Below are positions 32,711 through 58,281 of a stretch of 64,000 bases of DNA, piece by piece. The stretch covers positions 372,001 to 436,000 of the forward strand of contig JAFCMP010000479.1 of NCBI GenBank assembly GCA_017506865.1, read 5' to 3'. The notes beneath the pieces are model-generated. The model worked only from the letters and a program-made list of their open reading frames with translations. It did not search any database and was not told where the DNA came from. Numbering within the stretch: the stretch's first letter is position 1; every line of letters begins with the position of its first letter. The stretch comes from Tribonema minus. Its lineage: Eukaryota > Sar > Xanthophyceae > Tribonematales > Tribonemataceae. Position numbers and translations under genes: made by a program.

Positions 32711-32719
32711 ATGGCACCT

Positions 32720-32932: not shown

Positions 32933-33084
32933 ATTTTATGCACAGGTCAGGGCGCCCTTGTTGAACTGAGTACCGCTGTTCCCGGCCGCTGTTTGTTTGC
33001 CGCTGATTAAGCCTGCACCGTGAAGCGATGTTACCGCCGCAGCGTACCGTTGCTGTCAGCAAGGCGATTACACCTGAGTCCTGA

Positions 33085-35280
33085 TCATCTGCGGCAGGAC
33101 AGCATGGCGCTATACATCGTTTGCGGTTTGCGATTAGACCTGAGTTCTGCAACCTGCGGAGACAGCAAAGCGCTATCCGTCGTTTGCGGTTTGCGATTTG
33201 CGATTAGACCTGAGTCCTTCCACCTGCGGAGACAGCAAAGCGTTGTACGTCGTTTGCGGTTTGCGATTTGCGATTAGACCTGAGTCCTGAACACCTGCGG
33301 AGACAGCAAAGCGTTATACGTCGTTTGCGGTTTGCGATTTGCGATTAGACCTGAGTCCTGAACATCTGCAGCACGACAGCAAAGCTCTATAGTATTACGT
33401 CGATTGCGGTTTGCGATTTGCGATTAGACCTGAGTCCTTCAACATGCGGAGACAGCAAGCGTTATAACGTCGTCTGCGGTTTGCGATTTGCGATTAGACC
33501 TGAGTCCTGAACATCTGCAGCAGGACAGCAAAGCGCTATAGTATTAAGTCGTTTGCGGTTTGCGATTTGCGATTAGACCTGCGTCCGTCCACCTGCGGAG
33601 ACAGCAAAGCGTTATACGTCGTTTGCGGTTTGCGATTTGCGATTAGACCTGAGTCCTGAACATCTGCAGCAGGACAGCAAGTGCTATAGTATTGCGTCGT
33701 TTGCGCTGTACGATTTGCGATTAGACCTGTGTTCTGCAACCTGCGGAGAGAGCAAAGCGCTATACGTCGTTTGCGGTTTGCAACTTGCGATTAGACCTGA
33801 GTCCTTCAACCTGCGGAGACAGCAAAGCGTTATACGTCGTTTGCGGTTTACGATTTGGGATTAGACCTGAGTCCTGAACATCTGCGGAGACAGCAAAGCG
33901 TTATACGTCGTTTGCGGTTTGCGATTTGCGATTAGACCTGAGTCCTGAACATCTGCAGCAGGACAGCAAAGCGCTACAGTATTACGTCGTTTGCGGTTTG
34001 CGATTTGCGATTAGACCTGAGTTCTGCAACCTGCGGAGACAGCACAGCGCTAAACGTCGTTTGCGGTTTGCGATTTGCGATTAGACTTGAGTCCTGAACA
34101 GCTGCTGCATGATCAGGACAGCAAAGCGCTATAAGGAGAGAATTATTTGGGGCAATCCCCCAATACTAAAAGGCACCACAGGACATTTATTCAATGATCG
34201 AGTTGAAGATTGCACAACCATTTGACCGAACATTAACAGTTCGCTTCAGCTCGCTCTGCGGACGATAGTGCAACTTTCAAACTTCAAATTGGACAAAGTT
34301 GACTCGAGGCGCTACTGTAATTGAAGTATAACTTCAAATTGTAGTTTAACATCAACTGTCCCGCTCAATATCGACCATCATCTTCAATTTGAAGTTTGAA
34401 GTATGCATTATCATCCGCAGAGCGAGCTGAAGCAAACTGTTGATGTTCGGTCAAATGGTTGTGCAATCTTCAACTCGATAATTGCATTAATGTCCTGTGG
34501 CGCCTTTTAGTATTGGGGGATTGCCCCAAATAAATTCTCTCCTATACGTCGTTTGCGGTTTGCGATTTGCGATTAGACCTGAGTCCTGAACATCTGCGGC
34601 AGGACAGCATAGCGCTTAAGGTCGTTTGCGGTTTGCGATTTGCGGTTAAACCTGAGTCCTGAACATGGACAGCATGGACAGCATAGACAGCATAGCGCTT
34701 AACGTCGTTTGCGGTTTGCGATTTGCGATTACACCTGAGTCCTGAACATCTACGGCAGGACAGCATAGCGCTATACATCGTTTTGCGGTTTGACATCTGC
34801 GGCAGGACAGCATAGCGCTATACATCGTTTTGCGGTTTGCGATTTGCGATTACACCTGAGTCCTGCAACCTGCGGAGACAGCAGAGCCCTATACGTCGTT
34901 TGCGGTTTGCGATTTGCGATTAGACCTGAGTCCTGAACATCTGCGGCATGACAGCAAAGCACAACACATCGTTTGCGGTTTGCGATTTGCGATTAGGCCT
35001 GAGTGCTGAACATCTGCTGCAGGACAGCAAAGCACTATACGTCGTTTGCGATTTGCGATTTGCGATTAGACTTCCGTACTGCAATCTGTACTTAGACTGC
35101 ACGTCGTTTGCGGGTTGCGATTTGCAATCAGACCCGTTTTGCAAAACTGTGTGTGGAACAAAGCACTACACGTCGTTTGCGGTTTGCGATTTGCTGTTAG
35201 ACCTCCGTACTGCAATGTGTATTTCAATGGTAGCACTGCAGTCGTTGGCGATTTGCGATTTGCGATTAGGCAGTTCAACT
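33085..35280. repeat. ~70-75-bp satellite array, about 25 units
   Basis: Each unit contains CGTCGTTTGCGGTTTGCGAT then TTGCGATTAGACCTGAGTCC, a variable CTGAACATCTGCGG segment and a GACAGCAAAGCGYTATA end. The core itself is built of a 7-bp motif, RTTTGCG, repeated three times. Units at the right end (35040-35280) are more divergent. Two sub-forms alternate, one with GGAGACAGC and one with GCAGGACAGC. Open frames across it are repeat by-products. A 410-bp foldback element interrupts one unit. Confidence 0.93.
34134..34543. mobile_element. 410-bp foldback MITE with long inverted repeats
   Basis: The ends AGGAGAGAATTATTTGGGGC and its near-complement are the start of inverted arms of about 150 bp that match at well over 90 per cent. 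The remaining centre is AT-rich with AACTTCAAATTG-like strings. A 3-bp ATA flanks both sides (34131-34133, 34544-34546), consistent with a target duplication as made by PIF/Harbinger-type transposases. There is no coding capacity, so it must be mobilised in trans. Confidence 0.9.
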
Positions 35281-36858
35281 ACGGCGAAGGTGCGAACTTC
35301 AACATGACATCGTGCTGCTGTTCCCTCCCTGCAGGTGGACGGTGACAGCCGCTGGGTGGCGGGGACCTAGACAGGATCGGGACGCCTGGAACACGGTTAG
35401 GCCAAGCGTGCACCGGCCCTAAACAACCGGTATTACCAACTGGCCCTTGTCTTGCTGAGATCAGAGGTGCAAATTTCACATTTTGATACAGTGAGACAGC
35501 CCTGTTGTCTTTCTTTGTGAGACAGTTGGTGTTTTACGTAGGTTTCTGTAATCAGGTAAAATCTGTTGTCCCCTTGTCCCAGAATGTCTGTTGGAGTACT
35601 TGGAGATTAATCGACGAGGTTGAGTGAATTTTTGATGACACCAACTACTGGGACTACTACTAGCCTGTCCCAATCCTGCCCCACATGCCCTGCCCCATGC
35701 AACCCCAAAGCGTCTCATGGACCAATGCGCATACATGTGAAGAGTACCTTGATTCTGAAAGTGGAAGTCGGCTTTTGGCAGAGAGAAGTCAGCGTTCATT
35801 CCTCAAGAAAGTCTACATGTTCGGAGTCCTGCATGGCAGGCATTGCGGTCAGCTGCTTTCGTTTGAACGACTCCAGTCTGGCTGGCTCTTCAGCGTTTAA
35901 ATTGTACGACTGTTTGCATCCGACTGCTTGTTGTCAAATGCAAACTCTCTGGCCACGCGCTTGCGCATATTGGCGTCCGACCTTTGCGCATCTCGCGGCC
36001 TCGTCATGGCAGCTTCGGCCTTTCGCTGTACATTGCCCTGAGTGTCTTTGACCTCTTTACACCCCACATGTATTTCCACATATTCTTCGACGGCGTCTGC
36101 GCGACGACTAAGCGCTGCACCGGCACTTCGTCAGGCACTCCGTGTTGCGCGCGTTGGGTTGGATCGCAGGCTGAGCATCATCGCCTGTGCCAGGCACTGT
36201 TCACGCCGTGCACGCTGTGCAATCGCGGCCTGATCACTGACGACTTCTACTGCCATGTGATCACGGTCAAAGCGTCAGGCACTAGCGTGCCTACTGCAGT
36301 TGGCAGTTTCTGTTGCTGCTGCGCGTCAAGCGCGAGCTGAGGCGGGTTATCTCACGGCGCGTATCGCCGAGCCGCTGCAGCTTGCCGCTCTGTAACTGCT
36401 TATGTGTCCCTGCATACCCTGATGCTACGCAAGGCTCATCACGCCTGTCGCTTGCTGCAGGTTGCTGGTGGGCCAGGCCTTCGAGTTGCACTTTGAATGA
36501 GACCGGGTTGCTCGCGCAGTGCACCTTGTCACCCATGTTCGCAGCAGCGGCAGCGGCGCACAGCGCGCGCTTGCTGGGATATCTGCACCTTCAGCATGTC
36601 CAGCCTGCGCTTCCACCGTGACAGCTTCCACCTGAGCGTTGCCCGCCTCATGGAGCGTGCGCTGCTCTGCTAACTCGCGGCGCAGCTGGAGTTCATGCAG
36701 CGGCCCCACAGTCTGCTGGATCTCGTCCATTAATATATATATTTTGGGCGGCCCCATGTGGCTTGTGTGCAAATGCATACAACGACTCCATCCACCATGC
36801 AAATGCTACAATCACTCAGCGCGCCGCTGCCAGCAGTGACGACACCGGGCGCACCGCC
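35281..36858. other. Region with possible decayed element sequence
   Basis: Minus-strand frames at 36802-36425, 36536-36291 and 36079-35897 read as Arg/Gln/Glu-rich helical peptides (LQLRRELAEQRTLHEAG; LGDTRREITRLSSRLTR; ANMRKRVAREFAFDNKQ). They could be broken pieces of one coiled-coil ORF downstream of the retroelement fragment at 37340-36859. No family was recognised and no gene is claimed. Confidence 0.3.
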
Positions 36859-37338
36859 CTACCGCCCATCTGCGCGCAGCGCACGTACGCCAAAATACGC
36901 TCCGCCAGCTCGCGCGAGGGCGGCAGACAGGGTGACAACAATGTGCCGGCGCACCACACTTCGCCGCCGAAGCACCACCCGCTCGCTGCCGCCCACACGT
37001 GCAGCGGCATGCGTCGCCAAACGCGCGATGAACGCGCGTGCGGCGCCACCCAAGCGCCCGAAGGTCTCTTGAACGAAGGGCACCACCACCCACCGCTCGG
37101 CGTTGAAGTGCCCCACGTACCGCGCGCGCTTGTACGCCTCCGCCGAACGCGCCGCAAAGCCATTGACCGTCGCGGCCGCCCCACGCTCGCAGTACTTGGC
37201 GGCAGCAGGTGCACACACGCAGTTGTCGAGCGCCACGCCCTTGCGTTCGAAGTCGGGGTCGCCACACATGTGTAGGACGCCAGGAAGGATTACCGTATCG
37301 ATGCGGTCGCCTTCGTGATCAGAGGACGTGATGGGTTC
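36859..37338 (-). pseudogene. Retrotransposon ORF, C-terminal domain fragment
   Basis: The open frame runs from after a stop at about 37341 to the stop at 36859. It reads ILPGVLHMCGDPDFERKGVA then LDNCVCAP, an Ala/Arg/Lys-rich linker with EAYKRARY, and VVVPFVQETFGRLGGAARAF. This order (Cys-containing loop, vDxxV strand, K-rich helix, PF-x-ET-G helix) matches the domain behind the reverse transcriptase in many algal and oomycete non-LTR elements. The palm domain is not present upstream within this window, so it is a truncated copy, as 5'-truncated insertions usually are. Assignment is from pattern memory only. Confidence 0.5.
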
Positions 37339-41760: not shown

Positions 41761-42056
41761 TACGTATGACTGAAGCCCAATCGAAGAACGCCAAGGTGCG
41801 GATTGGCGTGAGGCCGCGGCACGCATTATAGCAGCTCAATGACGATCACGTTGCGACCGAGCGCCTGTTTGTGCGGATTTGTTACCTGAGAGTTTGAAAT
41901 GTGCTGGGTATGTCTGCAGGAAGGGCATGTTGATTGTGGAGACAAGTCTGCGATCGACAACATCTTCGGGCGGTTGCGCGTTCAGTGTACCCGTATGGAA
42001 TCTGAAATGTGCCTGCACGTGGCATGCTGTACACAAGACAGTCGTGTCTAATGTTG

Positions 42057-42400
42057 ATGGTTTATTATGTGGCTCACACTCAAAGAATATGTCCGCCGAC
42101 AAGAATGCTACCGCCGCCGCCGCTCTCATTGCACACATGACGAGCGACCCCACTCTTGACCCTGCCGATCGCAACGCGGTCAACGCCGCCATTTTCCATT
42201 GGGCCTCTGAGCAGGTGCAGTTGCATGCCCGGTACAAGGCCCGGCTAGCGGATGGCAGGCAGGGAGACGCAGCTCAAGTAAGGGCTGATAACGGCGGCTT
42301 CGTCAACGGCGCCGCAACGCTGAGTCCGTCATCACCAAGGCCCGCCGCACGCTGCCTGAGGGCAGCGCATGGGCGCGCCATTGCTATGCGCCGGCGCTAA
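42057..42400 (+). pseudogene. Probable N-terminal part of the recombinase, in another frame
   Basis: The end of the 41879-42400 ORF, from about MSADKNATAAAALIAHMTSD through HWASEQVQLHARYKARLADG, is helical and Ala/Asp-rich like a core-binding arm. It shifts frame near 42300 relative to the catalytic ORF that starts at 42406. A single-base indel or a short intron would join them. The first part of that ORF has no recognisable feature. Confidence 0.35.
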
Positions 42401-42405
42401 AAACC

Positions 42406-43275
42406 ATGGTGAATGATGCGAGCGCCGCCAGGGTCGACTGTGCCTCCCCGAGCCGTATTGAATATTGCACCGGTGAGATAATTAGGTGGGCCACTGAGCA
42501 GGCGGAACGCGCTGATCACCCAGATGCCGAGAAGGTCGCGCTGGCACTTGGGGCGCTCGGCGGCAGACGCGCCAAGGAGGTGCTGTACGGCAGCGAGCAT
42601 CCCACGCGCAAGGTCGGCGAACACCGTGTTGCCGCCGTGCTCTGCGTGAAGGGCAGAAAGCGCGAAGCTTCGGAGGAGGAGTTCGACACCATCATCCCGG
42701 CCGATCTCTATCTGCACGCCGTCGCCTTCGTGCGCAGCCGCATCCCTTGTGAGACTGTTGCCGACGTCAACCGCGCGGAAGCACGGATGCTCAACCGTAT
42801 GGAAAGCACCCCTCTGCTGCGAAAGTTCAAGGCCGCGTTCCTTGATCACTTTAAACACCGCCAGAGGGCAGGCATCAACCTAATGAGGACGCTGTACGCC
42901 ACGGAGATGACAAAGGGATCTCAGCGATCGCTCGTCGACACCGCAAGGGTGCTGTGTCACCGCCCTGTCAGGCACGCCGCGAGACACTACGATATGATTC
43001 GGGCAGTCCAGGCGGACACCTCTGAGCCCGCAGCCGCCGAGCTGGAGCCGGTCTGCTCGCCCTGCGCTACGTTGGCCACCGCACAGGACAGCACCGTCGC
43101 AGACACATTTTCAGATGCGGTCCAGGATGAACACGTGCCGACCAGGGCCGTCAAGCGCCAGAAGACAGCACCCGCTATGCGTATCAAAGACGCCGTCACC
43201 GTTGTCATCCTGTGCGCCGCTATGGCTGCGCTGAAAAACAACGGTCACACCACAACCCAGCTGCCGCCGTACTGA
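42406..43275 (+). CDS. Tyrosine recombinase, telomere-resolvase-like catalytic domain
   Basis: The ORF of 289 residues shows the spacing of a tyrosine recombinase. Arg 55 is in LGGRRAKEV (box I), a Lys-rich turn VKGRKRE is followed by an IPADLY strand, box II reads NLMRTLYATEM (Arg 161, Asn at the usual His), and CHRPVRHAARHYDM gives His 185 and the candidate nucleophile Tyr 195, nine residues apart. The KGRK...IPAD layout and R-xx-YAT resemble protelomerases (telomere resolvases) more than phage integrases; Crypton recombinases are the alternative. The tail is Ser/Ala-rich with a basic RAVKRQK patch. The reading frame continues upstream of the ATG to about 42276 (RRNAESVITKARRTLPEG), and a second frame (41879-42400) precedes it. 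The true N-terminus may therefore be broken by a frameshift near 42300. It would cut and rejoin DNA of its own element. Confidence 0.65.
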   Translation: MVNDASAARVDCASPSRIEYCTGEIIRWATEQAERADHPDAEKVALALGALGGRRAKEVLYGSEHPTRKVGEHRVAAVLCVKGRKREASEEEFDTIIPADLYLHAVAFVRSRIPCETVADVNRAEARMLNRMESTPLLRKFKAAFLDHFKHRQRAGINLMRTLYATEMTKGSQRSLVDTARVLCHRPVRHAARHYDMIRAVQADTSEPAAAELEPVCSPCATLATAQDSTVADTFSDAVQDEHVPTRAVKRQKTAPAMRIKDAVTVVILCAAMAALKNNGHTTTQLPPY

Positions 43276-43448
43276 CACACTGGCACTAGCCGAGCGCCTT
43301 ATGACTTGCGCTGGCGAAGTGGCTGCTGTCGTGTCACTGGCGTGGAGGGACTGCGAGGCACACCTGCGCGGCAAATGTCTCCACAAAAAAATATCGTGTA
43401 CAAGTCCTCTGAACCGTGCCTGCCGCCTAATGCAACTGGAATAAAGTC

Positions 43449-43829
43449 ATGCCGAGCCCAGTCGGACATGACGTTGCTTGGCAGCGCAGGCTTGAAGCGG
43501 GAGCACCATCCAAGCGGCCGCGGCACAAGGCGCCGCTGCCTCACCTGTGCAACAATTTGGTCAGGCGCATTCGGCGCGAGGGACGCCAGATCAGCGAGCA
43601 CCTGAACGCCGAATACCACCGTAAGCGCTATGCAGACATGTCCCCCCACATTCAGGGCCTGCGCACGGCACAGTCGCAGCTGGGTATGCTACTGCACTGG
43701 ATCCGCTGGGAGCGCACATGGTCAGCGGCGGGATCCAAAGCGTCTTTCTACCAGGGCTGCACCATAAGGCAGGCACTTGAGGGCCTCAGGAGCGACGACC
43801 GCCACCGCGAGCTGGAGGACGAACGCTGA
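43449..43829 (+). CDS. Unknown small basic helical protein
   Basis: A 126-residue ORF follows the recombinase on the same strand. It reads largely helical and charged (NNLVRRIRREGRQISEHLNA; SQLGMLLHWIRWERTW; ALEGLRSDDRHRELEDER). Codon choice is GC-rich like the preceding ORF. No family recognised. Its position suggests that it belongs to the same element. Confidence 0.3.
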   Translation: MPSPVGHDVAWQRRLEAGAPSKRPRHKAPLPHLCNNLVRRIRREGRQISEHLNAEYHRKRYADMSPHIQGLRTAQSQLGMLLHWIRWERTWSAAGSKASFYQGCTIRQALEGLRSDDRHRELEDER

Positions 43830-46000
43830 ACACTTTCGCAGTCAGCGACGTCTCGACTCTGAGTGTCGTCACGCACAGTGTGCGAAGCAAGCCACAGTGG
43901 CATATGCCAGTCTCGCGTCACATGCGTGTGATGCGCCAAGGCCCGTCAGTCAGTGTCTCAATATACTTATGATACCACTCAACATTCTTCGCTGCTTTCG
44001 CGCCCTACGCTTGTGTTTCTGTCCGCCTTGAAATTTTCCTGCACCTCAGTCTAGTGACCGAGTACCTTCGCACGCAAGAACGTGCTCCCGCCTGCTCCTG
44101 CAACTGCTACTGGTAAAGGTTTGATGCGCTACAGCACTCCTGCCATGAATGGCGCGCGCGTGCTAAAGCCGCTCATGCGAGCAATGCCCACACTCTACCT
44201 CAGCCCCGATCGCGCTGAGTTATACTGCGTGCGATGCTCACCATGCTCCCTGGTACTCGTCTGCCATGGCGGTGACGTTGCTCCGGCGCGAGTGCATCAC
44301 AGCTGGCGACTGCTAGGTGCTACAGAGCATGAGACATCCAGACGCCGAGGCAGAGCGCAGCGCTGTGTGCACACGGCTGCTGCCGTCACGGTGTTCACGC
44401 ACCCCGGCCTGCGTCCGCTTCGAGAGCGCGCTACACGTACTTGAGACTCCAACAGGCCATGCCATCACAAGCTGCAGAACCACGCCAGCAGTCGACGCCC
44501 GTCAGCACTGCGAGCTGGCCCAGGGGTGAATTGTTGTGCGCGTCCATCACCGAGGCGATATCGCGGAGCAGCTGCGCATTCTGCTTCGCCAAACTGAGTG
44601 CGGCCGCGTGCAGAGGATAATGTACGCCTGCACACCGCTAAAGACTGCTGGGTCCGCGTAAAGTTACAAGGACATCGGGAGACCTGGGCAGAATCAGCAC
44701 GCAATGACGGTGAGCAAGCTGGCAGCCAGGTTAAAATGCAAGCTACACTACAGGCTCCGAATGGCCTGACCCGCACAGCAAACGCAGCAGCATCAAGGCT
44801 TAGCCCTGCAGCAGCAGCAGGTGCAGGCCGGGTGGCAGGCCAGCGCTCTTCTGGCAGCAGCGGCAGGCATCAACAGGAGGAGAAAGTGGAGACAGCTGGC
44901 GTTATAAGCCCTGCAGCAGCAGCAGGGGCAGGCCGGGTGGCAGGCCAGCGCTCTTCTGGCAGCAGCGGCAGGCGTCAACAGGAGGGGGAAGTGGATACAG
45001 CTGGCTCTAAAAAACCCTGCAGCAGCAGCAGCAGGGGCAGGCCAGGTGGCAGGCCAGCGCTCTGCTGGCAGCAGCGGCAGGCGTCAACAGGAGGGGGAAG
45101 TGGAGACAGTAGCAGTGGCAGCACATACAGAGGTGACCCTGAACCACCACCCTGGCGGTGCTGGCGGCAAGTGAGATGGCTGAGTGTAATGATCAGATGT
45201 GGTTGCCACTCGCACCATTCCCAGGCCCTCAAGGGGGGCAGTGCCACCTTTGGTGGGCGTGATGGTATTCAGAACATCGAGACGGAGGAGTCCATCATGC
45301 CACTACTACTAGTACGGCCTCAAGAGCACCTTTGTGACCACCAGGGACATCCAGACGGGCAGGAGCTGCTCACGCGGTATGGACCCTCACTGAGCGCCGG
45401 AACACCGTGGAGGCTCCGAGTGGGAGTCCGCCACAGACAGAAGGAATTTGTACGGCAGTGCAGGCGCTCGCTGCTGCTCAGCATCAGATCAAGTCTGTGC
45501 TCAGCGCCGCCCGGGAGCTGCGTGCATTCAGCGCATGGTAGGCATTGGCGCGCGGCCCGATAGGTAGCGCCAAGTACTGCAGGCAGTGCCATAGGCTCTC
45601 CACTGCCGACTCAGCCGGGGGCCAGGCACACAGACGCACAATCAGTGTGTGGTACACTGCGCTCGAAGCGCTACAATGGCACAGCTTATAAGCTACCAAC
45701 ACATGTGCGCCAATTTCCAATCGCGCTCAAACATTGAAAGGAATGGTTTGCTTGCTCTATTGAGTGTGCCCACCGGGTGGTCTGTCACCTGCAGCATCTT
45801 GCCGTTGCCAAATTCTTGTCGCTCTGGAGCGGCCACGGCAAGGGACCGTCGTCAATGGTCTCGCAGGGCATATCCGGCGTGCTTGCTGTATTGTTGTTTG
45901 AACATGTGTCGGCTGCCGTGCGTGCACGCCGTGTCCTAGATGACCGACGCCCTGCGGGCCGCTACCTTCATCACCCACTCGTTGTTGCCTTGCCACTCCG
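43830..46000. other. Inter-ORF region of the putative island
   Basis: No convincing gene. It carries a three-copy ~105-bp repeat that keeps a long composition-driven frame open (44598-45563). Confidence 0.4.
44801..45115. repeat. Three tandem copies of a ~105-bp unit
   Basis: CCCTGCAGCAGCAGCAGG, GGCCGGGTGGCAGGCCAGCG and CAGCAGCGGCAGGCRTCAAC recur in order, starting at about 44801, 44906 and 45012. The first two are in register by multiples of three; the third is shifted. Confidence 0.88.
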
Positions 46001-47191
46001 TCACGTACTTTTGCAAACCACTGTCACTTTCAGAAGATCGCCCCGTAGCCACAACTTGTGCGGAAACTCTTGTAACTCCACAAGGCCATCCCGGCGCTCC
46101 TGCTTCACCGTATAGATTTCCCTCGAAAACACAGCTTCGTGACTAGATTTGAACTGCCCTATTTTTTTCAGCGCCTTCTTGGTGTTGTCGAGCGCCACTC
46201 TGTCTACACGCACAGTACTGAGTGGCTCCAGCTTTGGGTTGAACCTACGATTAACGTCTCTCCCTGCGGCCAGCCGTCGCAGGCGTTCTCGCACTGCAGC
46301 TAGTACTGACGCGGGACAAGATGTGTCGGCGAGGTCTCGCGGTCTCTTGCCAGTGGCGCTGTGGACGCTGCTGTTGTACACCCTCAAGACTGCGTTCAGC
46401 GCTTGCTGCACTGATATCTGTTTGTTGTCTAGGATGGAAAAAAGCATGGTGACAATCGTTTTGTTGGAGACCTCGGCCAGCCCGTTGCTCAACGGGTTCG
46501 CTGCAGTGGAGAGGATCTGCTTGATGTGCCCGAACCTTCCACGCACTGCTGTGAATTCTCGCCCTGTGAATTCTTTACCATTGTCGCTGCGAATGGCGCC
46601 TACACGCACACCAGCTGGTAACGAAGAGAGTATCGAATCCATGGCAGCGGCCACGAGAGGTCCCGATTTGCGGGCCAGTGCCCTCGCGTAAATTACTTTT
46701 GTGAACATGTCTGCGACCACCAGCAAGAACTTGGCCTGCCCGGCACGGTCGATCTGGGTCAGGTCACATACAAACACCTTGAATGGGCCCGTGGAGACGG
46801 ACGGCTTGGCCTTTTGAGTTCGCTTGCGGTGTCGATATTCCTGGTGCACTTGATGCGTCGCCAAAAACCGAGCTACCTGCGACGCACTGATCCCCCAGTA
46901 TTTTGTGCGCATGTACGACAGCAGCCGTTGGCGCCCCAGCGATGCTGGCATGGCGGCGAATTCTCTCTCCAGCACATCAAAAACCAGTGGCTGTGCGACG
47001 ACGACTCTACCCCTGTACAGGGGGATGCCGTCCTCGATCTGCAGTCCGCCAAATGGAAAACGAGCTTCAATGTCGGCGAGGTCCCGGAATTTGAATCGGG
47101 CCAGCGTGAAGTCTCTGCGCTGCTGCTCCGGGTCGGCAGATGGCCTGTCGCCGCTCAGGTCTCGCGCTTTTGCTATCGTCTCTTCGGCCAT
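46001..47191 (-). CDS. Stand-alone retroviral-type (rve) integrase
   Basis: The ORF of 396 residues starts at an ATG (MAEETIAKARDL). Residues 90-125 (YMRTKYWGISASQVARFLATHQV) correspond to the N-terminal integrase domain, though the zinc-site CxxC is not seen. The rve catalytic core is clear: Asp 143 in VFVCDLTQIDRAG, Asp 203 in IRSDNGKEF and Glu 240 in ANPLSNGLAEVSNK, so the DDE triad is complete. Then comes a YNSSVHSATGKRP segment, and a C-terminal SH3-like or chromo-like part (GQFKSSHEAVFSREIYTV). There is no gag, protease, reverse transcriptase or RNase H nearby in frame. Single-ORF integrases of this kind occur in Polinton/Maverick elements, Polinton-like viruses and Ginger DNA transposons. 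The open frame and intact triad suggest recent activity. A 255-bp MITE lies 170 bp upstream of the start. Confidence 0.9.
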   Translation of the reverse strand: MAEETIAKARDLSGDRPSADPEQQRRDFTLARFKFRDLADIEARFPFGGLQIEDGIPLYRGRVVVAQPLVFDVLEREFAAMPASLGRQRLLSYMRTKYWGISASQVARFLATHQVHQEYRHRKRTQKAKPSVSTGPFKVFVCDLTQIDRAGQAKFLLVVADMFTKVIYARALARKSGPLVAAAMDSILSSLPAGVRVGAIRSDNGKEFTGREFTAVRGRFGHIKQILSTAANPLSNGLAEVSNKTIVTMLFSILDNKQISVQQALNAVLRVYNSSVHSATGKRPRDLADTSCPASVLAAVRERLRRLAAGRDVNRRFNPKLEPLSTVRVDRVALDNTKKALKKIGQFKSSHEAVFSREIYTVKQERRDGLVELQEFPHKLWLRGDLLKVTVVCKST

Positions 47192-47362
47192 GGATCTGTT
47201 GTGGCTTGCACAACAAAATAATTTGCAAGATGCCTCGCGTGACCATGAGCTGCCAGACTGAGTGTGCAATGCAACCCGGCGGCGCAGCGCTCCAAGCGTT
47301 GCTGCGGCAACCTGGCCAGTTCAGGTTTGCAGCCCTGCGTTCACTTCTATCGTGTCCCAATG

Positions 47363-47617
47363 GGATCCACTCCGCTCATCCGCGACCCTGAAAGCCAAAA
47401 AGCAACCGAGCACCTATGCTACAGTGAGGTCAGTCAAGACACCCAAATTGATCAGGATCAATATCAACTTCAACAAGTGAGCAGTCACCAGATGCCCCTG
47501 ATATAGGGCTACATGACATAACCCAACTTCAATACCACTTCTGCCCTGGAGGCTTTACTACTGGACAAGGGTCTCGGTTGCTTTTGGCTTTCAGGGTGGC
47601 AGATGGGCGGAGCGGAT
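47363..47617. mobile_element. Foldback MITE, short copy
   Basis: The ends are inverted repeats of about 45 bp: GGATCCACTCCGCTCATCCG with CGACCCTGAAAGCC and AAAAAGCAACCGAG, matched by CTCGGTTGC...GGCTTTCAGGGT and GGGCGGAGCGGAT at the right. The interior shares ATCAGGATCAATATCAACTT and TGCCCCTGATATAGGGCTAC with the copy at 61793-62225. It has no coding capacity. Confidence 0.88.
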
Positions 47618-48509
47618 GCTAATGGTCCATGATGGCATGATGATGGCATGCTTTGTTAGCACGCTAGCCATGCAGCACCCTCCTTGCTCAAGTCCCTGCA
47701 GCCGCTGGGAAGCGCAACCAGCGTGTGCGCTATGCCACTGCTGCAGCCTGCTCAACGCTGCACGACGAATGCGATGGCCATGTTGCTACAGGCAAGGACA
47801 AGACCATGCTTGCGCAGCTGCTAGGCTGCGACAATCTGCCAGTCTGAGAGACGTGCAGTGCATGTTCAGTGCAGACGCGGCGCATGCCATGCAGTGCACG
47901 CAGTGCATGTGACTTCAGTCACAGACTTGTCAACTGTGATAATCATTGATGATCGGGTAAGCATGGGTCAAGCACTGCACCTTTCCGCGCACAGTTCTGG
48001 GCACAACATTCCAGTACACCGGTCGACTTCTGAATCAGTCACGTCCTCTTTGCATGGTAAACGCACCGAAAACAGGTAGACGTACTACTGCGTCCATGCC
48101 GTTTGTAGGAAACAATGTCTGACTCACCTGAAAATTCCGACCTGAGCTGCAGCGCACCGGACGAGTGGCGCAATTGCCAGTGTGCCTCACACGGCTGTGT
48201 GAAACCGCCTGCATAGCACCTTGTCGCCGGCCGTCCACTCTGCAGCTGCTGCTGTAGCCTGAGTACGTGCATCGGCCTCGCGCAACGGCCCTCTGTGCGG
48301 CAATGGTCACCGTGCACAAGGTTGCCGTCCGGTGGTGACGCAAGCTGCGCCGCAAGCGGCGAGCGGCGACGCAGCCGGCGACCTCACCAAAGTGTCGCTG
48401 CGTGCCACTAGCGCGTTAGCGGTGCGACGGGCAGCTCAAAACCACGATCGGTCAGCGTGAAATATTATATGTTGCTGCTGGCATCACTGACAGAGTCCAC
48501 GGGCTGAAA
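47618..48509. other. Spacer between MITE and KilA-N-like gene
   Basis: No gene recognised. A short plus-strand frame near 47690-47855 reads VATGKDKTMLAQLLGCDNLP, which has no secure match. Confidence 0.35.
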
Positions 48510-49639
48510 ATGGAACTGGCTGATATCCCCGCCGCCATTCGCATCGATCTCGCTTCGGGCATGGGCAGCGTGCTTGATGTCATACGCCTTGTGAATCCTG
48601 AGTTACCCTCAAACCAGGCGTCTTCCACCGTCAAGAGGCTGGCAACAGAGTTGCCAGACGTGGCGCCGTCCTGCCGCCAACTCCGAATCAACGGCAATGG
48701 CAAACACTCCGTGCGCTGACGCACGAACGCTGGTGGAAATTGTTTGGTCGCTGCCTGGCAAGCCAGCACGCGCATTTCGGCGTACTTCGGCGACGACTGT
48801 GTGCCGCGTTCTTGGCGGGGATGTCAGCTTGGTCGATGAGATTGAGTGGTGGTGCCGTGCGCTGCAGGCGACAGAAGTGGGTCGCACCGCGCAAGACTTC
48901 CTGATCGGTGACGGAAGCGTCAAAGTATCGAGGGAGCTGCCTGCGGAGTTACAGTTGGCCACTCCCGAGCAGCGGACCTTGTTTGTTGCGAGTTGGATCC
49001 ATGAGCGCAGACTGGCGCTGATTGACCGTGAGAAGACTCAGCAGCTGGCTTTGATCAAGAATGGTTTTGACCTCCTCGGCAGTTTCGGTGTCGCTGACGC
49101 GCGTGACAGGATCGCCTTCGGAGACCTGGTGCGCCGTGTTGTACAGCCCCCTGCACATGATGACGGCGCACTCATTGTCGCACGGCCGATGAGCGAGGAT
49201 GACCCGAGCGTGGCAACGCCCTTGGCGCAGGTTGCGCACCGAGGCCCCGAAATAAGCATGCACTCGGTCGCAGCCGAGATGGGTGTCCGCATCAAGGCAG
49301 GCACCGTGTTTGATCGGGAAGAAGGTGAAGGCTTTGTACACCATCAAGTACGGCACGGCTGCGGCTGCGGCGATCCCAAAGCGAAATATTCCTTTTCGGG
49401 GCCAGATATGCGCTGAGAACACATACTGGAAGCGCGATCAGGACCTCATGGAGGAGGCGATCCGCACGGTAACCATGCTGAACCGCTGCGACACAACAAG
49501 TGCCGATTGTCGACTCTGTCAGTGCAGGGCGGGTCGTCCTGGTACGCCGCTGCCACCGCTGCTTCTGCTGCAGCAGCTGCTGCTGCTTGACACGACGAGC
49601 ATGGTGTGTCTATTCGGGCTGGCACTCGCACTGTTATAG
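48510..49639 (+). pseudogene. KilA-N/BRO-type viral DNA-binding protein gene, frameshifted
   Basis: Three plus-strand frames follow the order of one family found in large DNA viruses and in virus-derived genes of algae and oomycetes. Frame one (48510-48719) has GMGSVLDVIRLVNPE and RINGNGK. Frame two (to 49416) has CADARTLVEIVWSLPGKPAR, FRRTSATTVCRVLGGDVSLV and DEIEWW, the usual LPGK/FRR/LGGD core, then a helical part with VADARDRIAFGDLVRRVV and EISMHSVAAEMG and a C-terminal HGCGCGDPKAKYSF block. Frame three (from about 49400) continues with ENTYWKRDQDLMEEAIRTV. The first shift coincides with an AAA run at about 48702-48704, where one extra base explains it. The second is at the TGA at 49414-49416. 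The product would bind DNA through its KilA-N-like domain; here it cannot be made whole. Confidence 0.65.
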
Positions 49640-51273
49640 TCACTCTCTTCGTGCTGTAGCTTGCCCATACGGATGACACTGGCCCGTCAGGGCTCAGCCC
49701 AGTACCGGCCGGGTAGAGCCTGCGAAGCCATGATGGCAATTGTGGCAATAAATGCAGTGCGCCTGACTTATTTTGTGTATTGGTGTAAACATTCTTCATC
49801 AGTTTCTGCAGCTGCTTCTTGCGCAGTGCACGCCTGTGAGGTGGTCACTCTTGTGGGGCGCCACATCCATGTTTGCCATACTATTGCTGTTATGTTGTTT
49901 GCCTGCAAGTTGTCTCTAACTTCACACTGTCGCTCAGGCTGGTTGTGCGCCGCTGAGTGCGCAACGGTCACTGTGGACGACTAGTTGAGCTGGTTGCACA
50001 AGGCTGAGTGTGGTTGGTGAACTGATGGTCTAGGATTTATAGCGACCAGGGTGGGCCCGGTTTGTGGGACGCCTTCAATGAACTCAGTCTGGTAATGCAG
50101 AACAATGTGCAGGCTAGGCTGCTGCATAGAGGTGAACCAGAGAATGCATAGGACACCATGCCTCTGTAGGTGCCTTTGAAAGTATAAGTCATTCAGTATG
50201 TGCATCATCGGGAAGTCTGAGCGGACTAGATACACTGCCAGTGTGTGACAGCCGTGCCTGCGAAACGGACGCAGAGACTGCTGAGCTCAGCACGGTCGCA
50301 GGTGACGCCACGGCCCCAGCGCACACCTCACACTGCTGCTGCTGTTTATGATGCTGCAACAAGTGCTGCACATGCGCTGCTCCTGAAGGGCCACTGTGGA
50401 GCGCCGCAGCTGGCACGGTCTCGGCGGGTGCCCTCTCCACGGCTTAAAAAAAATAAAAATTGCCCTGGTCATTGACAGGGCGAGATGGTGCTGTTTGCCC
50501 TGGTCATTGACAGGGCGAGATGGTGCTGTTGGTGCTTCTCATCTGGCGCCCCTTCTTCCTGGCAGGGGGATGGCCAACGCTGATCAGTGCCGCACTGCGT
50601 GGCATGCATAGTTGTCGCTCTCACAAGGCGACTAACGCCCCACTGCTGGTAGCCGCATCTTCTCGCCCGTCCGGGCTGATGCCTAACGCAGAGCCCGCTG
50701 ATGCCCATCAGCAGCAGTAGCAGCCTTATTTTGCATGGCCGTGCACAAGCCACCTCAATCAGTCTGGCAGGTGCAACATGATGGTGAAACACTGTCGGCT
50801 TCGTTGATGCCCTCACAGGCCCGGGGCCCGTTGTACTGCACCCAGGTCCTTCAGAAAGACCACTGCGTCCGTGCCGTGCAGGGCAAGCACACCTGCGCTG
50901 CAGCGCACCGGACAACTGGTGCGATCACCACTAAGTCTTCCATCCGTTAAAAAATGTTGGTATGCAATCAACACGGCACATGACTTCACTAGCGCTCGCC
51001 GAGTTGCTGCGGAAGGATATTCTAAGGGACCTCAAGGCAGTGGCTGGTTGCCTGCAGCAGCACCGCCCCAACATCTGTCACGATGACACGCTGTGCCTGA
51101 GGCGCACATGGCGCAAGACCTCTGGCGATGACGTGGTCAAGAACAGCAGCACGTACAAGGCGGGACTGAACGAGGTCATCGAGCGCGCAAAGCAGATGGC
51201 GCGCGGCGCCACAGGACGTGAGGAGAGAGCATGGGCAGGGCGGGTCAAGGAGCGCGTCATTGCCTTTGACGAA
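49640..51273. other. Region without recognised gene
   Basis: A plus-strand frame from about 50990 to 51423 reads as a helical charged peptide (ALAELLRKDILRDLKAVAGC; GREERAWAGRVKERVIAFDE) that could belong to an element, but no family was recognised. A 34-bp direct duplication lies at 50462-50528. Confidence 0.3.
50462..50528. repeat. 34-bp direct duplication with internal dyad
   Basis: CCCTGGTCATTGACAGGGCG with AGATGGTGCTGTT follows itself directly. GCCCTG and CAGGGC in each unit can pair. Confidence 0.8.
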
Positions 51274-51990
51274 CTAAGCATCTGCAATCAACGCAACCTC
51301 AAGGCGAGCGGGCGCCTTGAGCAGACCGCGGCAAGGTCTGACACCGGCAGCTGCCCGTTGCAGCAGATCGCGCAGCGCCCGCCACGCGCCGTCGTCCTGG
51401 CGCCAGTCCTGGTACCAGACTGAGGGCAGGAGCAGTGCGAGGGCCGCTGCAGCATCATTGCTGCCGCTGCGCAGCTGCTGCAGGCAGGTAGCTATCTGCG
51501 TGAAGGTGAAGCCGTAGCGGGCGTGCTCCAGGACGCAGCTGCGTGCCGCGACTGGAAACGCCGCCAGTGCCGGTCCCATGCACTCAAGGGTGCGTGCAGC
51601 AAATGCGGCACATGCACGCGGCGCCGCGCCCAGCACGCCGAAGCCACCGCTCCCCAGCCGCAGATGCACGCGTACCTGCTGGTGTTCTGGTAGCGTCACT
51701 GGGGCCTCGCCACCCCAGTCGGCGCCGCGTGCCCATGCCACTACCGCCACCCACAGAGAGGGCGGCGCCGCAGCCGCCGCAACTGCCGGCGGGCCGCGGC
51801 GATCGTCACCAGCCGCCGGCGCGCCCTCGTGGACCGGCGACGCGCCCTCGTGGGCGGGCGGCGTAAGACCCGCCGATGGCTCCTGAGCCAGCGCGGCCAC
51901 GGCCGCTAGCGTGATGGCGTCGAAGCGCCGCAGCTCCTCGTGCTGTAGTGGCTTCAGAATATGTGGCATACTGTGGCAACGCATGCGCAT
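51274..51990 (-). pseudogene. Non-LTR reverse transcriptase, region behind the palm (fragment)
   Basis: This 238-residue open frame reads LQHEELRRFDAITLAAVAAL, a linker with AHEGASPVHEGAP, then LPEHQQVRVHLRLGSGGFGV and AACAAFAARTLECMGPALAA-like text. The LRLGxGGxGV...AAF pattern is the conserved segment after the reverse transcriptase palm and thumb in non-LTR elements of algae. The catalytic YxDD is not present upstream, so the copy is truncated at both ends. It may sit in an intron of, or just upstream from, the gene that begins at 52176 on the other strand. Confidence 0.5.
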
Positions 51991-52175
51991 GTGCCTGCCT
52001 GGCTTTTGCGAACACTGCTGTCATTGAAGAGTTGTGTCACAGTGCTGTCATGGGGCATGTATGCTGATGCAGCGTGCGCCATGCATGCTGACACCAGTGT
52101 CATAGCACCACATGCGAGGGTGTAATCAACGCTCCTGCTCATGACCTTAAATGCCTCAATGTGCATGTTGCCCAG

Positions 52176-55100
52176 GTGATCTGGAACTACGTGTCTGTGT
52201 TTTTCAGCAGCAGCTGGACGCTGGCTGAGAGAGCGGAAGCAGCATCATATGTGCTACACTTCTTGCGGGTGTGGCGCTCTTGGCTGCTACGCGCGGAGCG
52301 GCTCACCTTGAAGGCAAACTTCATCAGCAGGGAGTGCTATGAGGACATCACCATCTCTGTGCACAACGTCATCCTCATCATCAGGTGCCCCTTGTCATGA
52401 ACTATCACGAACATTTGTTGCAGCTTGACATTTGTTTTAGGCATGCATCACCATGTCTGCCACACGCATATGCTCACAGCAGAGTCCAGATGTCAATCCC
52501 GCTCATAAGCTCTTTGCGGCCTTGTCATGTGATCGTGTGCTGTAGGATTAAAAATACTGTGTATAGTTTACTCGCCTTCCACCGCCTGCTGAGTATCATG
52601 CATGATGGTGGACCTACAGAGTATGAAGATACTGCGGAGCTCCATTTCATGACTGTTGTGGCCGCACCATTGACCATTCTGTCAGTGTGTACAGCATGCA
52701 CACACAGCAGCGGCATTTGCCTGCATGCTTGCACGGGCAGTCTTGCGCGTGCGGTGCAAGAATGCGGACCGAAGTTAATTGACAAAGCCCAGCCAAGGTA
52801 ACAAAGTTTGGTCGTACACATCATACAACTCTTGTACGACAACTGCTTATATCATTGCCAACTTGACTCTTTCATCTGACAAACATGTCGCTGTGCGCTT
52901 TGCACAGGTTCTTCCGCGACTTCACCCCCGGACTGCCTTGTGCTCTCACGCAAGATGGCAGCGACTGCTGTGAGAAGGTGTTCTCGGAGCTCTGCGGGAG
53001 CGGCGCATCATCTACAATGCAGCGCATCTACACACACTACGATGCATTGCGCGCGGTGCCGAAATACTGGCATGTGGAAGAGCAGATGTGCAGCCCAGAT
53101 GCGCTGCTGAAGAAACGCAGGCATGAGAAACTGTGTGATGTGTGGCACAAGGTCAGTCATTCGCTACATTGACAGAATGAGTAAGTCATCTCATGTGCTC
53201 CTGGATCATGTGCACCATTACAAATTAATCCTATACGCTGTACGCAGCTTTTGAATTCTCAGAACTGCAACACAAGGCGTAAGGATTTTTTGCCATTGCA
53301 CAAATCGGATGCCAACTTACCCTATGTATTATTTCTCGGTATGCAATGTGTCCGCAGGATGTCATGCCTGGCGATGACATTCGTGCTGATGGGCCTCCTG
53401 CTGCTGCAGATCTCTCCGTGTACCCCAGGTGAGTACTTCATGAGACAATTTTATTTAATCTTATGACAACGGAATGAACATCACAAATGTGAAGCTTCAG
53501 ATTCTGCTTCTTTTCTATTGTCAGCTGAGAGTGCTGCCTCATGTTGCGCAAAGCGTAATGCTTAAATGCGGTGATTGCGTTCAGAATTTCTCCGTCATAC
53601 GGCAGTGATGCAACGCGAGTGTACCTATGCCTTAAAAAGCATGCGCTTTCAAGAATGACTTGAAGACAGGCCTTTCCAGCTGTTATGTGTGACTAATACA
53701 TGCGATCTATGGTCTTTCAGCTTTCTTATGTGGCGTTGCTAATAAAACGTGCTTCTGTAGTATGTATTCCCAATCAAATGGTGATCCTACTACTCAGCTT
53801 TACGCTAGAGCTAACTTCTTGATGACTATATGTTGCCCGGTTTTGCAGCGACGCGGAGCTGACGCTGCAATGGACACTGGGGCAGCAGCGAGCAATGCGT
53901 TTTGCCTGGAACGTGGGCATCAGACCCCCATCCCTTGAGCACTTGCTCTCGCCGCCGCCTGACTTTCCTACAGCTCTGCCTTCGGCGTTTGCTGAGGCCG
54001 ATCAGTGGTACATTGAGCCATGGGCAGAAGAGGAGACAGCACTTCTGCACATGCGGACAGCAGACCATGATGATCAGGGACACGAGGCGCCCATGGACAC
54101 CATTCCCGCAGATCCTCACAGGTGCGTGCTGCTGTAGTGCAATGTAATCATACTGCGTTGTTCGGTGATCTTGTAGCAGTTGATAATACGTGATGTTATC
54201 AGGTGAGCCCCAAATTTTTGCCTCTGTCTAGGTTAGCTCACAGACGCAACCGGAGAGAGACGCATGCAGGCAATAAATACCATGACAAGCAATGGCTACA
54301 ATGACAACTTCAAATGGCTCAGATGGTTCGCTCACTCTCAGGCTGCACACGCTCATGCCAGGATGCGATGCCACTGTGATTGCAGGCCGGCTGGAGCACA
54401 CGCGCCTGTCCGCAGTGTGGAGCCGGGTCTGCCAACTGCCGGCGTCATAGCACAAGCGGGCCCAGAAGAGACAACGGCGAGGTATACATGATGGCATTCT
54501 TCTGACTGCAATGGCAAGCTTCTGACTATGCCCTTTGACATGCATGTCGGACACTATACGAGTAGCGGCTGGCAACATTTCATAGAGGCCATCCCTTCTC
54601 GTACACAAGGTTTTGCATACGACATTGTAAACTTTTTTGCAACCCACTTGACAAGTGCACCACTGGATTTGTGGACTTGCATAACATGATCACTGCTTTG
54701 TTGATGCATACCCACTGCACGCCCATCCGATCGTGTGTCATCGCATGCTGATGGTAAGCTTCTTTGTGGCGTGATGACCTATGCAACATGTCAGCACCAC
54801 TACGGCCATAGGCTAAAATCTCACGATATCTTGAGCAGGTGCAACCGTGCAATTACTCCACGTCCTAACTCTTATGCTTGTTGCCTTCGCAGGGTCGAAG
54901 GCCATGCGCCGCCATGGCGCTCGGAGTCTGACACGGACGATGACGATGGGGATGAGGCTGATCATCAGCACACGTTGAGCGCCAAGGCATTGACAGGCTG
55001 TCAGCCCAGCGACGTGGACCTCCATGATGATCCAGGCATGGCGACTCACACATTCAGTGTGATTGAGGATGACTTCGGAGTGGCGCAGGAGGTGATTATT

Positions 55101-56452
55101 GGCGGCGCGAGCCGCGACAGCGACAACGCACGCAGCGAATTGCGCGCCATTGTGGACACGCTCATCACAGAGAACATCAGTGATGCACCATCGGAAGGCG
55201 GGCCTGCGATGGTGACCATCAAGAACGATGGTGGGGGGGGGTCTGCGGGCAGCAGTACGAAGATTTGCCCCCACGTCATGGTGCCAGAGCGTGGGCTTGT
55301 CTCCATACAGCAGCTGGTGTCGGAGCTGAACCATGTCAAGCCTGGTGCCAAGCTGTCCAAGGACCGGCTCACGCGTGTCACTCAGGGGAGCAGCGAAGCA
55401 CCGAGCCAGCGAACAGTGTTTCAGGTGACCACATTTGATTTACGAGCACCTATACACGCATGTTGGTGTTGCAACATCTGCACACATCAGAGAATCGTGG
55501 AAGCGGTTGTGTTTTAACATTTCGATGTTGAAGTCCCCCAGACAATCACGACGTTACATCCTTTAAGTTTGTGCACATCTGCAACGGTACATCATGCATA
55601 ACATGCTGTAGTTCGTTATGGTGGTGATGCTAGTATGTTAATGATTGTGCCGACACATGCGGATATTTCGTGCTGAGACAGTGCAAGACACCAACTTGTG
55701 CAGTGCGCATGAGCAATGTTATAGTGTGTATGCGGTTTACACTTGCGTGGGTGCTCTAATCTGTACACCGCCAACATGTGGCATCATGTGTCATTTCGCA
55801 AGAAGCCTCAAAACCTTTTAGTGGTAACACTCTGTGTTGTCTCCTCTTGTACTGTGTTGTCATCTTACAGGCACTGGAGCTCGAGCGGCGCATGCTGGGT
55901 CTACAAGGGGATTTTGCAATGATCTTTGAAAACGGCTCGGAGATGCGCACCAGCCAGCAGCCATACCATTTTTGGCTTGGCAAGGTGCAGCGGTTGATCA
56001 AGCTTGCGGGTCGTCGGAGATTCGACTACCGAGAGCCGGTTGACCTCGACAGCTATGAGGGCAAGATTGTGGTGGTCGCACACTGGTACAAAGCTGCGCA
56101 AGCTGATGCCAGCGGCCCTGATGTGGACAGTGTGTATGTGTTGAACGAGCCTGATCATCAGTGCTACGACATTGCGCATGTGTTGGCCCCTATCACATTG
56201 ACGTCCAGCCTGAGGGCAGTGCAGGGTGCTGATGGCACTGAGTCGTTTGAGTACGTACTCAGCAAGATTGACAGATATGCCCTTGATGCTGCTATCGCTG
56301 AGATTGCAAAGAGCGAGGGGCTGCTTGGCAGTACCAGTGGCACCAGTGCCAAACGCAAGCGATCTCAGACAATGGCGGATGACGGACGGGAAACGCGCAC
56401 CATCACTAGCACGCGCGGCCGAATGATCACCGCTGTGCAGTATAATGCATAG
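52176..56452 (+). CDS. Transposase-like protein of unknown family (5' end unresolved)
   Basis: Six exons join in phase: 52176-52384, 52908-53151, 53358-53428, 53849-54121, 54893-55424, 55871-56452 (stop TAG), about 636 residues. Exon 1 has ERAEAASYVLHFLRVWRSWL and NFISRECYEDITISVHNVIL. Exon 2 has GSDCCEKVFSELCGSGASST. This order (FLRxWRxWL, NFISxxCYxxI, CExxFxxL) resembles a large protein family seen in cnidarians and algae, where the Glu of the CE motif may be the last acidic residue of an RNase H-fold transposase core. Exon 5 is acidic and low in complexity (SDTDDDDGDEAD). Exon 6 carries WLGKVQRLIKLAGRRRF, VVVAHWYKAA and YDIAHVLAPITL, then a basic tail (KRKRSQ) that could be a nuclear signal. 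Upstream exons were not found. It may be a transposon gene or a domesticated copy; intron density favours the latter. Confidence 0.62.
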
Positions 56453-58281
56453 TGGGTGCTGCAACTGCACGCCATCGCTCGCCGTAGGTGTCTACATATA
56501 TGTGTGTGTATACACGAGCAATTACGGATTCATCGTCATTCTATTATTTGCCCTGTGTCACATGCACGGGTTTGCATGTCAATGGATGCCAACATGTGTT
56601 GATGCCTCCAGCTGATCAGCAAGGCCAGTATCAGCATAGTAAGATGCTAGTGCAAGCGCTGTGTTCTCATTGTTTTCATGGTCGTTCATTTTGCCCCATA
56701 ATGTGTGCCACAAGTGTGCTACACACACGTCGAGTACAAGGGGGCCAGGTCACCCTTGCTTGTTTGCCCAGGGGCAAAGTTTGACGCCTGTGAAGAACCT
56801 TAGAATCACTTCACTTTTTCTATTTGACTTCACCATCGTATTGTACACACCGAGAGCTGTTCAAAAACGCCCTCGAATAGGTCAGGGGTATTGATAATAG
56901 GCCGCAATAGAAAGTGGGGGGGAGGGGGGTTCTGGCGCCGCGGAGCCGGGGGGGGGGGGGGAGGGAGCTGGGACCCCGGGAGTGTGCTTTGCCTTTGAGT
57001 TTTGAGTCCTTAAGCTTCGCATAGTATGCGCGAGCCTCCTTGGCCAAGTCAGGCCCCGGATCATGATTATCGCTGTCCATTGCGCTGCGCTGCGGCCTTG
57101 TTGTGGTTGGAGGTGATGTGTGCTCAGCAGGCCTTGGCGCCAACATTTTAAACCCTCAACGGTTGATGCCACTGTCAGAAACAGCGGCAAATGGCTTCTG
57201 GCTGTTGCTGCAGTCGCAGCGCGATGTTTGGTGCGATTTGAGGTCGATCCATAGCAGGAAATAGGCCAATATACGCCAAAATACGGATTTTTCCAGCTGA
57301 AATCCCACATACGGTTATTTAGTACGGATATACGGATGTACGTATCATGTACGGAATACGGAGTTGCCAACCCTAGTCCTTAGAGATAAAGCGTATGGGG
57401 GCAAAAACCAGGGCATGCCCATGTGACACCAGTGCACGCACTCAAACAGCTATACAGCACCACGCAAGGGCACAACGCAGGTGGCGTGCATGTGCAATGT
57501 GAGGGTGCCACCGTCGAATCATGCGATGCCTTGTGATGTGCATTCGCGTTTTTTCTGACTCTTGAAGAAGGTCTTCGGAAAGACCAAGAACCCGACAATT
57601 AGGTGGTGACCAGCGCCAATGCGTCGCTGTGCGTGGCTTCTTGTGTTGTCTGTGTAATATAGCTGGGCATGGCTGGACGCCATCCATTGATTAAGATGCT
57701 TATAAGCGCTGCTCGGCCTGACAGTCGGTCCCAGTAGAGCACACACTGCGCGGTGCCTGATGATCACTTGACAGCTACAGATAGTGTCGTGCATATGCTA
57801 GCGCGTACATCCAACACATGTCGCCGTTGAATACACAGTCATGCATGGCTCAGGATGGTACATCAAAGCGAGAAGGAAGGAAAGAGGGCAAACGGGAAGG
57901 GGGCGACCTACTAATAACGCCTACTTGGAAGTGCAGATTGCTACATTCAAACACTGTGGGCTGCAGCCGGCACTCTGTGTGATGTGTGTGCGAGGCGCAG
58001 AGCGGCGGACTTGGCGAACAGCGCTTGCACTCATCGAGGCCTTTCAAATCTGCTAGTCTCCCTCTCAGCCGTGCGCTGGTCAGTATTGGAGTTCACGGCT
58101 CACACGCCAAGCACACCTCCGCGATAGCCCTGTGATATGAAGAAGCATCATGGAAAAATTTTGATTATCAAAGGCCACCACACATGCACAGGGCGATATT
58201 ATAATGGACAACTCCTGATTGTATGGAACTCTTTGCATGGCGAATGGAACATAAGTACCATTTCGGTGTAGCTATAAAGTG
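56453..58281. other. Intergenic region between convergent genes
   Basis: No secure gene. It holds G-runs (56917-56966), a minus-strand frame 57146-56820 with KEARAYYAKLKDSKLKGKAH that might be a small protein but has no match, and a cluster of ATACGG motifs (57270-57365). Confidence 0.4.
57270..57365. repeat. Cluster of TACGG/TACGTA motifs
   Basis: TACGG occurs seven times in 96 bp, several as ATACGGA, with a TACGTA palindrome, in otherwise AT-rich sequence unlike its surroundings. Confidence 0.6.

Follow-up and report, generated by a model that had tools for sequence, protein, structure and literature searches.

Telomere resolvases are known from phages, from bacteria with hairpin-ended replicons and from giant viruses of brown algae, and the prophages of N15 are unintegrated plasmids. 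Here we analyse a stretch of 64,000 bp from the xanthophyte alga Tribonema minus (C479:372001-436000 in a 158-Mb assembly; C numbers denote contigs), hereafter called the window, in which telomere-resolvase-like genes and a DDE integrase gene lie within a multicopy element that starts with a perfect palindrome. On balance we favour the reading that the window holds two thirds, on the left side, of a giant transposon copy that has decayed; its integrase would have inserted it, and its resolvase would release or resolve it at the palindromes. The anatomy of the element is well supported; that the resolvase acts on the palindromes is what we infer.

The element, of which the centres of the copies were read in part, shares features with several known systems. 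Like Polintons/Mavericks and Polinton-like viruses (PLVs) it is of giant size and has an rve integrase and terminal inverted repeats. The target duplication of Polintons is 6 bp; the T. minus element differs from Polintons and PLVs in its 5-bp target-site duplication (TSD), its palindromic ends and its telomere-resolvase-like genes, and no capsid, ATPase or PolB was seen in the parts read (no PLV capsid model was used). Cryptons and other tyrosine-recombinase transposons resemble it in placing a tyrosine recombinase on a eukaryotic DNA element, and they are not known to encode a DDE integrase, to end in inverted repeats or to duplicate their target. The likeness to phages N15 and PY54 lies in a perfect inverted-repeat site and in YR2, one of two telomere-resolvase-like proteins of the element (YR1 and YR2), whose family matches protelomerases by sequence. 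In the N15 record a 56-bp inverted repeat adjoins the resolvase gene, whereas the T. minus palindrome is shorter (30 bp) and terminal to an integrated element.

The elements of Ectocarpus phaeoviruses carry an N15-type telomere resolvase with an internal, palindromic telRL-like site; these giant viruses (288-407 kb, with capsid and polymerase) use a different tyrosine recombinase for insertion, which takes place at CC, and the source sets integration by tyrosine recombinases against DDE integration (PMC13236599). The T. minus element is alike in combining a telomere-resolvase-like gene with a palindromic site and in being integrated in a related stramenopile alga, but differs in that it has a DDE integrase, long inverted repeats with a palindrome at both ends, and duplications of 5 bp. 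Like the element, the punuiviruses of Chlamydomonas duplicate their target, end in long inverted repeats and have a supposed DDE integrase; unlike it they are giant viruses, and the sections consulted mention no resolvase palindrome for them (PMC13236599). No transposon with such a combination was found in the open-licence literature, subscription papers and preprints being outside the search. By its defining features the element appears to stand apart from the known kinds considered, each enzyme family being already known.

Extent and ends of the element

The window was compared with eight other loci (on C201, C239, C188, C530, C171, C190, C290 and C350). Homology spanned positions 24926-51351, at 75-97% identity over pieces with nested insertions between them. 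The left end of the element is at 24926, and the same boundary was found in C290 and C190 with unrelated flanks. The complete element is C479:396926-461844 (64,919 bp) and continues 25.8 kb beyond the window; the earlier note, which had placed a virus-like island at 41879-49639, thus described only an inner part of the unit. The element is multicopy, with many genome matches to the DNA of 44-46 kb (52 listed); all copy counts are lower bounds, the genome searches scoring only the best candidates.

The outermost sequence of the element is a perfect palindrome of 30 bp, TGAACTGGTAGGTATATACCTACCAGTTCA (24926-24955), found by the homology boundary and a palindrome scan. It is the only perfect palindrome in the window with arms of at least 12 and more than two letter types. 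A genome search allowing up to 3 mismatches detected it at 28 places, and the reversed pattern, used as a control, at none. Five of these places (C49, C74, C255, C260 and C362) have common flanks, so that 24 contexts are left. Element interior was present to the right only in 17 of the 28, to the left only in 8, on both sides in one (C159) and on neither side in two. One of these two is a solo palindrome, C201:41109, with CCCTG on both sides. The other, C530:157662, was rejected as a second solo palindrome, because approximately 10 bp of interior persists there. The 14 non-central pairs of the palindrome were all intact at 24 of the 28 places, and the remaining 4 were damaged at the outermost bases. 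A symmetric variant (GGTACG/CGTACC) was present at 3 places; asymmetry was otherwise restricted to the central pair. C57 and an array in C159 have ends that break off close to the centre of the palindrome. The array (C159:115650-116000) consists of several such element ends joined together, with a complete end after them.

The left TSD copy, CACTT, is at 24921-24925 and the right copy adjoins the right end at C479:461844. Exact 5-bp duplications flanked all four pairs of facing ends on the same contig, and the flanking 6-mers were not identical. Besides C479:396926-461844, these pairs are C290:771308-837979 (66,672 bp, AGCTA), C290:160795-271994 (111,200 bp, GTCAT) and C190:674692-746580 (71,889 bp, AATGT). 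The odds of four chance 5-mer matches are about 1e-12, given equal base frequencies and a pairing fixed beforehand. At the right end of the 66.7-kb C290 element an extra partial palindrome (C290:837957-837979) precedes the target duplication.

The palindromes form the tips of terminal inverted repeats, which in C479 are approximately 7 kb long. The left one (24926-33058, forward strand) is an inverted match to C479:454836-461844; the first 8.1 kb match in five pieces at 90-97% identity, interrupted by an insertion at 26430-28165 that is missing from the right arm of C479 and from C290. The 66.7-kb C290 copy has YR1 and the integrase in both arms, and in C26 YR1, integrase and YR2 are found in both arms in inverted order. 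The match of the C479 right arm ends at about position 33058, indicating that the C479 copy was probably deleted or rearranged.

Genes of the element

The integrase gene lies on the reverse strand at 45942-47320 and is frameshifted near 46013-46016; intact copies encode 463 aa. In the window, the open reading frame (ORF) at 46001-47269 matched rve above the cut-off (E 3e-9), and the integrase scored 38.2 bits against PF00665 (E 1.8e-9, cut-off 32.6), which makes it an rve member; its IS481 and IS3 matches in NCBIfam were under the cut-off. The DDE triad was located by eye in CDLTQID, SDNGKEF and GLAE. In all four TSD-bounded elements there is a DDE copy that is at least 90% identical.

YR1, detected by Pfam, PHROGs and motifs, is encoded on the forward strand at 42089-43275 with a frameshift at about 42322-42325, its 5' part (42089-42325) being in a different frame from its 3' part (42406-43275). 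The 3' part matched phrog_5272 (E 2.7e-6) and the Pfam domain ResT-TelK_cat (PF16684; E 3.5e-4, 20.6 bits, under the curated cut-off of 27 bits). The telomere-resolvase-like recombinase and the DDE integrase reported in the earlier note were thereby both recovered. Intact YR1 is approximately 395-400 aa long from its methionine. A profile combining phage with virus-type resolvases gave 6.8-23 bits for five YR1 sequences, the best of 200 shuffles reaching 3.9. The 3' part contains the motifs GGRR, VKGRKR, LMRTLYA, LCH and HYD, the order of which, as judged by eye, parallels GRR, GQAKKR, RAIYA, LGH and HY of TelN. The first R and the K come from the profile alignment, whereas RTLYA, LCH and HYD were placed by eye. 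The tyrosine is conserved in 7 of 8 aligned sequences (P0008 has N), and a ninth sequence is divergent at that end. YR1 apparently bears the telomere-resolvase catalytic set R, K, R, H, Y.

Of YR2 only an N-terminal piece is present in the window (50980-51351, forward strand). Intact YR2, approximately 410 aa from its methionine, scored above the PF16684 cut-off in C26 (31.7), C7 (30.7), C171 (30.6 and 30.5), C319 (29.5), C530 (28.5) and C49 (27.6), and under it in, for example, C201 (26.4) and C239 (26.1). By this curated profile, YR2 is classed as a member of the telomere resolvase family. PF16684 also gave matches above the cut-off in a control genome, Synechococcus elongatus. The single PDB match of the YR2 profile, up to E 10, was the protelomerase 2v6e (E 9e-6), and a metagenomic YR2 relative weakly matched 9 phage records (E 5e-3 to 5), namely 6 annotated as protelomerase or telN, one as gp29 (the N15 gene), one unannotated and one hypothetical. 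No conserved H...Y was seen C-terminal to D.RALY, leaving YR2 without a recognisable catalytic tyrosine. YR2-like genes of approximately 43-50% identity, in frames of 472-644 aa, were also observed in C235, C50, C150, C226 and C353, those of C226 and C150 being oppositely oriented pairs; these may represent further such families.

The third gene described in the earlier note, a frameshifted KilA-N/BRO gene, is a real gene with two frameshifts in the window (48420-49486, forward strand) and four intact copies of 357 aa elsewhere. Its KilA-N/BRO identity was not upheld, as no such domain was matched by the window ORFs (Pfam) or by the 357-aa homologue (Pfam, PHROGs and NCBIfam), and we leave it as a conserved gene to which no function is assigned. 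Other copies of the element contain a further ORF of 630 aa, also without assigned function. Between intact copies dN/dS was 0.15-0.17 for the integrase (one nearly identical pair giving 0.65), 0.17-0.23 for YR1, 0.25-0.33 for the third gene and 0.32-0.39 for YR2, and mostly 0.15-0.39 across the element genes. The integrase, YR1, YR2 and the third gene are under purifying selection. In the window frameshifts affect YR1, the integrase and the third gene, while YR2 breaks off at 51351; the element is here a broken, decayed copy.

Five of the eight other loci (C201, C239, C188, C530 and C171) have YR1, integrase and third gene co-linear with the window, at 85-96% DNA identity; the stretches in C190, C290 and C350 have one or two of the three. 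A resolvase match was present inside three of the four TSD-bounded elements, C190 being the exception. Co-occurrence of resolvase and DDE genes was scored within 12 kb at 60 DDE places, where approximately 0.01 per place is expected by chance. Among the places more than 80% identical to the integrase (family A) 14 of 22 had a resolvase match, and some of the misses hold a YR1 that PF16684 does not detect (e.g. C188). At 62-80% identity the figure was 8 of 11. In a second family, with integrases 62-75% identical, the association of integrase and resolvase genes is likewise maintained. At its loci in C1:1513757-1518347, C536, C224, C157, C112 and C519 the integrase is 68-75% identical and has a resolvase-like gene, or two of them, no more than approximately 7 kb away, in opposite orientations where two were seen. 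The three genes thus belong together in one multicopy mobile unit, and the earlier note was right to see a decayed element in the window; the check that it proposed came out in its favour, with intact paralogous genes at other genome sites and inverted repeats bounding the element. The finding that would have refuted the note, each gene in an unrelated transposon family, was not made, as the genes occur together in many copies and in the second family.

Proposed mechanism and alternatives

Since all four delimited elements have an rve gene and duplications of 5 bp, insertion is attributed to the DDE integrase, which would create the duplication. YR1 would cut the palindromes at their centre, with YR2 perhaps as its non-catalytic DNA-binding partner. 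It could either resolve a copy outside the chromosome, giving linear DNA closed by hairpins, or join the two end palindromes, in which case excision would leave one palindrome. Opening of the hairpin would re-create the complete palindrome, which would then be inserted by the integrase; that the palindrome arms always agree would be explained if a hairpin yields the whole palindrome when it is opened or copied. Resolvase action at the ends is suggested by the presence of a resolvase-like enzyme together with perfect palindromes, their symmetric variation, the broken ends in C57 and C159 and the solo site. The fuller scheme is put forward tentatively, as something short of probable: a class of giant eukaryotic transposons with a linear-DNA phase that has covalently closed hairpin telomeres, YR1 as the catalytic and YR2 as the non-catalytic paralogue making or fusing the ends, 5-bp insertion by the DDE enzyme, excision leaving a solo palindrome, and a phaeovirus resolvase that is a relative exchanged with such transposons. 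If the element does use the resolvases at its own termini, hairpin telomeres would also serve as a transposition strategy in the nucleus of eukaryotes, in combination with an integrase of retroviral type, and the element could be the source or the recipient of the phaeovirus resolvase. Such action is directly testable, as the sequence-defined palindrome is naturally repeated, has symmetric variants and one solo copy, and lies beside the candidate enzymes.

Several observations weigh against a transposon worked by its resolvase. YR1 is under the PF16684 cut-off in all copies scanned (19.4-21.7 against 27 bits), its H and Y positions are a by-eye placement, and a profile including YR2 separates it only narrowly from shuffles (8.2 against 6.2 bits). 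The YR1 profile gave no resolvase match in PDB, YR1 and YR2 did not match each other in profile comparison, and their AlphaFold models were unusable (pLDDT, a model confidence score, 39 and 49). No resolvase match was found within 12 kb of 26 of the 27 DDE relatives below 60% identity. There is a single clean solo palindrome, the two ends in C57, of which the left breaks off close to the centre of the palindrome, have no common 5-mer flank, the flanks in C26 are C runs and uninformative on duplication, and C290a and C190 each bear differing palindrome variants at their two ends. The inverted arms of C290 and C26 greatly exceed the C479 arms in length, and assembly errors are possible in such long inverted repeats. 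The 19-kb contig C350 consists of one 9-kb inverted repeat with arms 99.8% identical and a 1-nt centre; it is probably a fold-back assembly artefact and was rejected as evidence for a hairpin, its centre differing from the terminal palindrome.

The resolvase action being something that we infer, the palindromes could be recognition ends of the integrase. The element would then be a DDE giant transposon with ends serving integrase or replication only, and the resolvase-like proteins would be cargo or act elsewhere. The palindrome is outermost, begins with TG and finishes with CA, as is frequent at integrase ends, and YR2 has no recognisable H...Y. We nevertheless hold this to be improbable: a DDE enzyme has no need of perfect two-fold symmetry and a symmetric variant, ends broken near the palindrome centre occur, and integrase and resolvase are kept together in two families under purifying selection. 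A chance meeting of three unrelated mobile genes might be imagined in an element so rich in nested insertions (a LINE-like fragment, a hAT piece and a transposase-like ORF); it is scarcely credible and was ruled out by the co-linear copies at 5 of the 8 other loci, with their common ends and target duplications.

The earlier note saw in this locus the remains of PLVs, virophages or large DNA viruses. Integrase, inverted repeats and TSDs would in that case be a provirus signature, left in an endogenous virus or virus-derived element stripped of its virion genes. This origin, which we regard as unlikely, draws on the long terminal inverted repeats, target duplications and supposed DDE integrase of punuiviruses and on the telomere resolvase and telRL-like palindrome of phaeoviruses, as described in PMC13236599, and on the 23-30% identity of YR2 to virus-type resolvases of the T. 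minus genome. However, the Pfam matches of 103 element ORFs were limited to three families, the resolvase domain in 3 ORFs, rve in 2 and a piece of hAT in 1, with no structural-gene domain and no capsid, packaging ATPase or PolB, no Polinton or PLV capsid model being included. None of the 10 genome matches to the capsid of nucleocytoplasmic large DNA viruses (NCLDV; PF04451) and none of the 26 to PolB (PF00136) lay inside the delimited elements; a search for protein-primed PolB (PF03175) was silent in the element and in controls alike and thus uninformative. Scans of viral contigs with YR1, DDE and YR2 gave no confirmed relative, and the terminal palindrome was not found in them (0 matches).

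In addition, none of the 12 high-scoring (at least 70 bits) virus-type resolvase places in the genome had a DDE integrase within 12 kb. Seven of the 12 are on contigs with NCLDV capsid or PolB (C179, C90, C21, C181, C112 and, twice, C223) and are therefore read as endogenous giant viruses (xanthoviruses) of T. minus. Insertion without target duplication, as expected of an endogenous phaeovirus or xanthovirus, does not fit the 5-bp duplications at all four pairs. Nor did the delimited elements yield a match to the NCLDV capsid and PolB expected of such a virus. A viral ancestry of the element is thus possible but not supported, the centres having been read in part.

Nested insertions and other repeats

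The insertion at 26430-28165 (reverse strand), nested in the left terminal inverted repeat, contains a 438-aa ORF (26625-27941) that was labelled transposase-like by eye and has no Pfam match. Tandem repeats with units of approximately 70-73 bp follow within the element at 33064-35270, and copy comparison revealed a 600-bp insertion (36731-37330) that is missing in the C290, C188 and C201 copies. YR2 is truncated by a fragment of a reverse-transcriptase element (51351-51943, reverse strand) resembling a long interspersed nuclear element (LINE), with an RVT_1 match of E 1.7e-8 in a long homologue. The repeat at 52000-56985, present in the element loci of C171 and C62 and also at C112:1598354, may or may not belong to the element.

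The remaining part of the TSD-bounded element in the window (56986-64000) has other genome repeats nested in it. One of these, of 433 bp (61792-62224), is listed at more than 30 places in the genome at approximately 96-97% identity and is related to an insertion at 47451-47617; it looks like a young miniature transposon. Another (62776-64000) is a repeat found at 92% identity in C312, C423, C66, C522 and C279.

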